A program made the position numbers and the translations under genes. From the NCBI GenBank assembly GCA_017640605.1, contig JAEPQH010000002.1, positions 248,001 to 312,000 of the forward strand: a DNA stretch of 64,000 bases. Reading direction: 5' to 3'. The number at the start of each line of letters is the position of its first letter. Positions within the stretch are counted from its first letter, which is position 1. Shown here piece by piece: positions 22,650-23,392 of this stretch. The notes beneath the pieces were generated by a model. That model saw only the letters and a program-made list of their open reading frames with translations. It was not told the origin of the DNA and did no database searches. This DNA comes from Balneolaceae bacterium (GTDB lineage Bacteria > Bacteroidota > Rhodothermia > Balneolales > Balneolaceae).

Positions 22650-22866
22650 TGCTGCCGTGCATACTTACAAATAACGACTGTGATAATACTATGAAATAAC
22701 TCTTCGAGTGAGTGTAATTGATCTTATCGGATGAATCAAACGATTAATAACAAATTATTTAAAATTATATCATTTCAACATTAATCAACCGTAAAGTCTT
22801 TTCATTTCCGAACGTGTAAAACTAACCTGTTTAGTTAGTATTTATAATTCTGCAATGAACTCCAGA

Positions 22867-22970
22867 TAAAAAAAGCCAACCAGAACAATGTCTGATTGGC
22901 TTCATCTATTTTTAGTGGAGATGCGGGGAGTCTTCCATCGGAATGCCTTCGGCAGAACCCCGGTTCGACC
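22867..22970 (-). repeat. Partial duplicate of tmRNA 3' end and terminator, with a 22-nt insertion
   Basis: Positions 22867-22932 copy 22977-23043 with few mismatches: the terminator, the AT-rich spacer and the last acceptor/T-arm bases of tmRNA. After the 22-nt insert at 22933-22954 the match resumes for GAACCCCGGT (22955-22964). Read on the minus strand, the insert sits inside the T loop, between TTC and GACT. There is no upstream tag region, so this is a remnant, not a second tmRNA. Confidence 0.85.
22868..22903 (-). terminator. Second (duplicate) rho-independent terminator behind tmRNA
   Basis: On the minus strand AGCCAATCAGA pairs with TCTGGTTGGCT across a 6-nt loop and is followed by a run of T. 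It repeats the first tmRNA terminator 111 bp further downstream, giving a tandem termination site. Confidence 0.85.
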
Positions 22971-22978
22971 GAATTCAT

Positions 22979-23014
22979 AAAAAAAGCCAACCAGAACAAC
23001 GTCTGATCGGCTTT
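22979..23014 (-). terminator. Rho-independent terminator of tmRNA gene
   Basis: The minus-strand stem AGCCGATCAGA/TCTGGTTGGCT with loop CGTTGT is followed by seven T. It begins about 12 bases after the mature tmRNA 3' end. Confidence 0.9.
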
Positions 23015-23026
23015 ATTTATTTTTAG

Positions 23027-23392
23027 TGGAGATGCGGGGAGTCGAACCCCGGTCCGAAACGGCAAACCTGCAAATATCTACATGTTTAGTTGCTAATTAA
23101 CATTCGCCTGAAGCCGAGCCTAGCAACCAAGCGACTTCAAACTATTCTGTGAAAAATTCACGCAGCAGAGACAGAAGGCCCTGTTACGCTATCCTGTCTG
23201 TTATGGCGATCCAAACTGACGCTGACAGGCACGCTTTCAGCGGATCGGCTCAGTCAGTTTATGCTGCTAAGCGGTAAGAATAATTGTTGTCAATTATTTT
23301 TGTGTCCATAATGGGTGTTTTACGAGAACCATTGGTCATCCTCGACATGCAACCTGCGGTGTTACTCATCCCGTCAAATCCAGAACATCCCC
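23027..23392 (-). ncRNA. ssrA: tmRNA (transfer-messenger RNA)
   Basis: About 366 nt on the minus strand, rescuing stalled ribosomes. The 5' end GGGGATG pairs with CATCTCC near the 3' end to form the acceptor stem, followed by discriminator A. The genome continues ACTA, so the CCA end is not encoded. TTCTGGATTTGACGGG after the 5' end and the T arm CGGGG-TTCGACT-CCCCG are diagnostic. The tag frame ends at a TAA at 23259-23261; reading back gives DNNYSYRLAA if the GAC at 23289-23291, about 102 nt from the 5' end, is the resume codon. The tag ends in LAA as needed for protease recognition. The 3' end and terminator are partly duplicated downstream. Confidence 0.95.

Follow-up and report, generated by a model that had tools for sequence, protein, structure and literature searches.

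The stretch of DNA analysed here (the window) comprises 64,000 nt of a Balneolaceae genome and carries on its minus strand an intact tmRNA gene (ssrA) and, downstream of it, a displaced copy of its 3' end. The features of the locus are as follows:

23024-23392, minus strand: native tmRNA (ssrA), intact (Rfam RF00023 match; ARAGORN)
22983-23014, minus strand: first intrinsic-terminator-like hairpin, after the native tmRNA (hairpin prediction)
22955-22968, minus strand: displaced copy, 5' half of the T arm, TCGAACCGGGGTTC (sequence and repeat match)
22944-22954, minus strand: mini-hairpin 1, TGCC-GAA-GGCA, in the T loop of the displaced copy (sequence; pairing backed by covariation in relatives)
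22933-22943, minus strand: mini-hairpin 2, TTCC-GAT-GGAA, in the T loop of the displaced copy (sequence; compensatory change in the same-genus relative G001)
22915-22932, minus strand: displaced copy, remainder of the T loop, 3' half of the T stem and 3' strand of the acceptor, GACTCCCCGCATCTCCAC (sequence and repeat match)
22872-22903, minus strand: second terminator-like hairpin, duplicated along with the 3' end (hairpin prediction)
22922-22965, minus strand: element core, match to covariance model R2 with 61 bits (covariance model)

The native tmRNA matched Rfam family RF00023 with 181.9 bits over model positions 1-374, ARAGORN gave DNNYSYRLAA as its tag peptide, and its T loop region reads GTTCGACTC. 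The tmRNA end and terminator at 22977-23043 were found again at 22866-22932 with 94% identity over 67 nt, ungapped and 111 bp apart, in agreement with a preliminary description of this DNA that had reported the duplication and its spacing. Each copy is followed by a terminator-like hairpin with a 13-bp stem (23014-22983 and 22903-22872), which makes up the tandem terminator described there. The 22-nt insert in the T loop of the remnant was also recovered, the loop being split on the minus strand between TTC and GACTC; the repeat indeed resumes past the insert, but over 14 nt at 93% (22955-22968 versus 23044-23057) and not over the ten bases given before. Read on the minus strand, the displaced copy consists of GGGGTTC, TGCCGAAGGCA, TTCCGATGGAA and the 3' part listed above. 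What had been overlooked is that the insert is made of two perfect mini-hairpins of 11 nt each, with 4-bp stems and 3-nt loops, and that it is recurrent. No ORF of at least 80 aa overlaps the tmRNA copies. Since the native tmRNA is intact, an intron or a split gene was rejected; what is present is an intact RNA gene followed by a displaced 3' copy with a split T loop.

The preliminary description had proposed to look for the insert elsewhere in the genome. A 25-nt pattern around it occurred only once. With structural modelling, however, two further strong copies were recognised in the same genome, located beside tRNA-Asn and tRNA-Ser. Successive models, one from four tmRNA copies and another from 21 copies, placed the element beside many tRNA genes. 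Many more copies were found in relatives, so that a chance origin of the insert was rejected and the significance attached to it was borne out. In the same-genus relative G001 the same tmRNA unit is present with CTCC-GAT-GGAG as hairpin 2, a compensatory change, and in other genera the same place is taken by the stem pairs TGCC/TCCC, TCCC/TTCC and TCGC/TCCC. A T loop split by the double hairpin adjoins tmRNA in seven Balneolaceae genomes and was also found beside tRNA-Ser, -Asn, -Pro, -Arg, -Met, -Ala, -Glu/His, -Thr, -Val and others; displaced 3' copies with a split T loop occur in Balneolaceae, in further families of the phylum and in Ignavibacteriota, and their acceptor half matches the neighbouring tRNA. 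The bare hairpin-pair pattern had more than 50 matches in 92 genomes and a control pattern none, and an exact 33-nt form was found in records of Balneola, Balneolaceae, Melioribacteraceae, Ignavibacteriales and Chlorobiota. With this recurrence across the order, the phylum and other records, a curiosity of a single genome was rejected as well; the copies are dispersed and have two adjacent short hairpins, as expected of double-hairpin elements. The element is present in 26 of 129 genomes of the order, a few of them with the bare hairpin pair only, and in 25 of 296 genomes of the phylum. The distribution is patchy in both, contrary to a duplication fixed in all relatives, which had been named as part of what would speak against a mobile origin; an otherwise identical pair of empty and filled loci was not found among the genomes compared.

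Pairing in the two hairpins is conserved by covariation. In 111 distinct rows, aligned by a fit to the model that biases the pairing counts towards it, 95.2% of the cells were paired, and double changes were seen in 213 cells compared to 63 in shuffles. An earlier MAFFT alignment (A2) gave 94.1% paired cells and a covariation score of 0.445 versus 0.137, and the signal was lost when the partners were slid. A single extended hairpin in place of two was rejected with a covariation of 0.242 versus 0.445 and 82% versus 94% paired; predicted RNA folds prefer the extended hairpin over two, and DNA folds are mixed. The loops fall into an RAA-type in hairpin 1 and a TTY-type in hairpin 2, which are mutual reverse complements. 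With respect to loop type, the pair therefore reads the same on both strands, which points to a site at the DNA level. Only tmRNA and tRNA exceeded the curated thresholds of Rfam, and a known RNA family was rejected.

In the genome of the window (G000, contig C11) a gene for a GIY-YIG protein lies between tRNA-Ser and its split copy, and GIY-YIG genes adjoin both tRNA-Ser and tRNA-Asn. The protein of the element has ~80 amino acids and is of the UPF0213 type: the tRNA-linked proteins match Pfam GIY-YIG and the solved UPF0213 proteins (PDB 1zg2, 1ywl), and the GIY-YIG tyrosines as well as the R, H and E positions were invariant in six sequences. When the family was searched with the tRNA-Ser-linked protein of G000, a tRNA adjoined 22 of the 30 best matches, as compared to a chance expectation of ~1% by our own estimate from ~45 tRNA genes in 3.7 Mb. 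All loci examined in which a GIY-YIG gene lies at most 400 bp from a tRNA, 39 of 39, have both on the same strand, part of these loci having been chosen for their hairpins. Among the tRNA-linked rows listed, a displaced tRNA copy was found within 450 bp in 28 of 35, with the 22-nt double hairpin in 17 of these. In many loci the GIY-YIG gene separates the intact tRNA from its displaced copy. The insert sits at fixed points, which are the D loop, the anticodon loop after the second anticodon base and the T loop after TTC. A tree of 41 proteins requires 7 changes of isotype, where 6 is the least possible and shuffling gave a mean of 25.9; therefore, the GIY-YIG lineages keep to one tRNA isotype. 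G062, G012 and G114, which carry strong copies of the double hairpin, had no GIY-YIG match at an E value of 1e-5.

A tmRNA locus with such a gene was found in G359, a genome of another family. Here, an 80-aa GIY-YIG ORF (Pfam GIY-YIG, 66.5 bits) starts 14 nt after the tmRNA and is followed by a displaced copy with the double hairpin, which reads ATTTCGGACGCGGGTTC, TGCACAGCA, TCCCTTTGGGA and GACTCCCGCCACCTCCAC in succession. This is the unit of the window with the gene in place. When phage records were searched with the G359 protein, all matches were partial and had less than 60% identity.

Displaced copies can also form arrays. Five copies follow tRNA-Pro in G019, and in the single-contig genome G381 eleven split 3' copies, spaced by ~112 bp and each with a terminator-like hairpin, come after tRNA-Thr (L247:1361-2800). 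In both arrays the terminator after the last copy is a different one, as would be expected if new units had entered behind the gene and ahead of the terminator that it had originally.

That a mobile element gave rise to the duplicated tmRNA end, as had been suggested before, is probably right, but not with regard to the kind of element, for which an integrase-type island had been considered. A genomic island of the tyrosine-recombinase type, once located between the copies in a tmRNA or tRNA gene and then lost with attL and attR left behind, would account for the duplication, and the tmRNA of the relative G008 is indeed occupied by an island (C4:199553-212423, L137) with copies 12.5 kb apart and an integrase-like ORF adjoining the tmRNA. 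Islands between the copies in relatives had been proposed as a check, and in this sense one was found. However, this island ends in a plain second 3' end with an uninterrupted T loop and no hairpin insert, while the scar of such an island in the window would have to be an equally plain duplicate and is split by 22 nt, which in the window and in relatives form a conserved, covarying double hairpin. An integrase or cargo would be required between the copies, but the 111 bp are without an ORF of at least 80 aa, and the genes that recur between such copies, also in the tmRNA version, encode GIY-YIG proteins and not integrases. We regard a lost island as very improbable.

The 22 nt could also be an independent mobile double hairpin that enters hairpin loops and the centres of palindromes, where displaced tRNA copies tolerate it next to an intact gene. 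The insert is indeed found in D, anticodon and T loops, similar double hairpins lie at the centres of palindromes and in simple-repeat tracts away from tRNAs, and double-hairpin elements of organelles are thought to be mobile (PMC2800124). Since this would leave unexplained why so many tRNA genes have a displaced copy next to them, why GIY-YIG genes intervene and why the T loop is split at the same point across phyla, we consider it unlikely, though less so than a lost island. Between these two in probability, and still rather improbable, is a function as RNA, with the displaced copies acting as tRNA-like decoys or tandem terminators under selection on RNA structure. The terminators of the units, the arrays of up to 11 copies and the compensatory changes would fit such a role, but the dyad symmetry of the RAA and TTY loops is what one would expect if the site acts as DNA and not as RNA, RNA folding predicts one extended hairpin in preference to the two, and presence in only 26 of 129 genomes is patchy.

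We favour an assignment of the locus to elements that inhabit tRNA and tmRNA genes and encode a UPF0213-type GIY-YIG protein. In full form, such an element comprises an intact tRNA or tmRNA, the gene for the ~80-aa protein and a displaced tRNA end with a T loop split by the two hairpins, often together with a copy of the terminator. Since the GIY-YIG gene is absent from the 111-bp unit of the window, the locus is probably an ORF-less copy or a remnant and not a full member; the gene may have been lost or may never have been present between the copies. The anatomy of the locus and its assignment to the family are held with high confidence. Spread by homing appears reasonably probable, somewhat less so than the identity of the locus as a copy or remnant: the GIY-YIG enzyme would cut sequences of the T loop, perhaps also of another loop, in tRNA genes, and the element would spread by repair of the cut. 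A precedent is SegB, a GIY-YIG homing endonuclease of T-even phages whose gene lies next to tRNA genes. It cuts inside tRNA genes with a preference for the motif RAWTSGAAC, which enhances cutting but is not required (PMC13096335). By our own reading, its reverse complement GTTCSAWTY would correspond to the T loop sequence of tRNAs. The native tmRNA sequence given above departs from GTTCSAWTY in a single position, and the insert interrupts the motif directly after GTTC. This suggests that the insert may block re-cutting, and because the double hairpin divides exactly a motif of the SegB type, we favour an element of the homing type, with a displaced copy that would have been rendered inert where the enzyme cuts. 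The double hairpin would inactivate the displaced copy by breaking the cut motif, by preventing the copy from serving as a tRNA arm, or both; this role is tentative. Against this model stands that the restored tRNA retains the T loop sequence, so that splitting of the displaced copy alone cannot explain immunity from re-cutting; further weak points are hairpins in other loops of some copies and hairpins away from tRNA genes. More speculative still is the wider proposal that bacterial chromosomes harbour a large, isotype-specific family of tRNA-invading GIY-YIG elements whose tRNA copies are disarmed because a double hairpin of dyad symmetry sits precisely within the cut motif, as self-immunity or copy silencing, and whose ORF-less copies spread and form arrays with the enzyme acting in trans. 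We know of no other homing element with self-immunity or copy silencing of this kind.

SegB and related free-standing GIY-YIG homing endonucleases of T-even phages share with the present element a nuclease gene beside tRNA genes and cutting within tRNA genes, which is presumed here, and SegB also drives tandem amplification of a tRNA segment; they reside in phage genomes, and the accessible part of the report gives no isotype preference and does not mention displaced tRNA copies with split loops (PMC13096335). The present element, in contrast, is found in bacterial chromosomes, with isotype-keeping lineages, double hairpins and ORF-less copies. Double-hairpin or repetitive hairpin-forming elements of fungal and sponge mitochondria likewise consist of two short adjacent hairpins and are dispersed, scattered and thought to be mobile, but are from organelles and have no partner nuclease named (PMC2800124), whereas those described here are bacterial, have dyad-symmetric loop classes and are located for the most part where a displaced tRNA copy forms a loop. 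Genomic islands in tRNA and tmRNA genes also leave a restored gene and a displaced 3' end, but with a plain attR, kilobases of cargo and an integrase instead of 111 bp, a split T loop and, in full form, a GIY-YIG gene. The UPF0213 proteins 1zg2 and 1ywl resemble the protein of the element in size and sequence family, but are stand-alone proteins deposited without an assigned role; to our knowledge, no linkage of UPF0213 proteins to tRNAs is known. GIY-YIG genes beside phage tRNAs and double-hairpin elements of organelles are already known. Elements with tRNA-linked GIY-YIG genes and isotype-keeping lineages in bacterial chromosomes were not described in the literature searched, a search with most subscription papers outside its reach, and the combination with the double hairpin looks like a little-known family of tRNA-invading selfish elements. 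If true, the tRNA and tmRNA genes of bacterial chromosomes would join phages and introns in the biology of homing endonucleases, an explanation would be at hand for a class of duplicated tRNA ends easily mistaken for scars of islands, and the unexplained double-hairpin elements of organelles would have a bacterial counterpart with a candidate enzyme.

Unusual copies were also observed. GIY-YIG loci at tRNA-Val, tRNA-Gly and some tRNA-Pro genes are without the 22-nt form; in L193-L196 and L200 the gene directly follows tRNA-Val(TAC), and most of these loci show no clear displaced copy in the adjoining 450 bp; the tRNA-Val loci are possibly older or differently built elements. Double hairpins centre palindromes other than tRNA arms at L110:1512, L112:373 and L132:3083, with no GIY-YIG gene seen nearby. 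Others, not near tRNA genes, are embedded in or adjoin short direct repeats or simple repeats, at L122:2606, L124:1012, L125:2905 and 5748 and L129:2227 and 2377. Some displaced copies have double hairpins in two loops. A Chlorobiota record (JAUXDH010000175.1, L149:1-540) holds two near-complete tRNA-Ser(GGA) copies with double hairpins in the anticodon and T loops and a GIY-YIG ORF between them; an intron in these doubly split copies was rejected because an intact anticodon-arm match is present elsewhere in the genome. A full second copy of tRNA-Arg(ACG) in Ignavibacteriales (L147:3080-3700) carries a hairpin in the D loop and a double hairpin in the T loop, and in G381 eight copies at a spacing of 92 bp follow tRNA-Cys (L253:846-1650).
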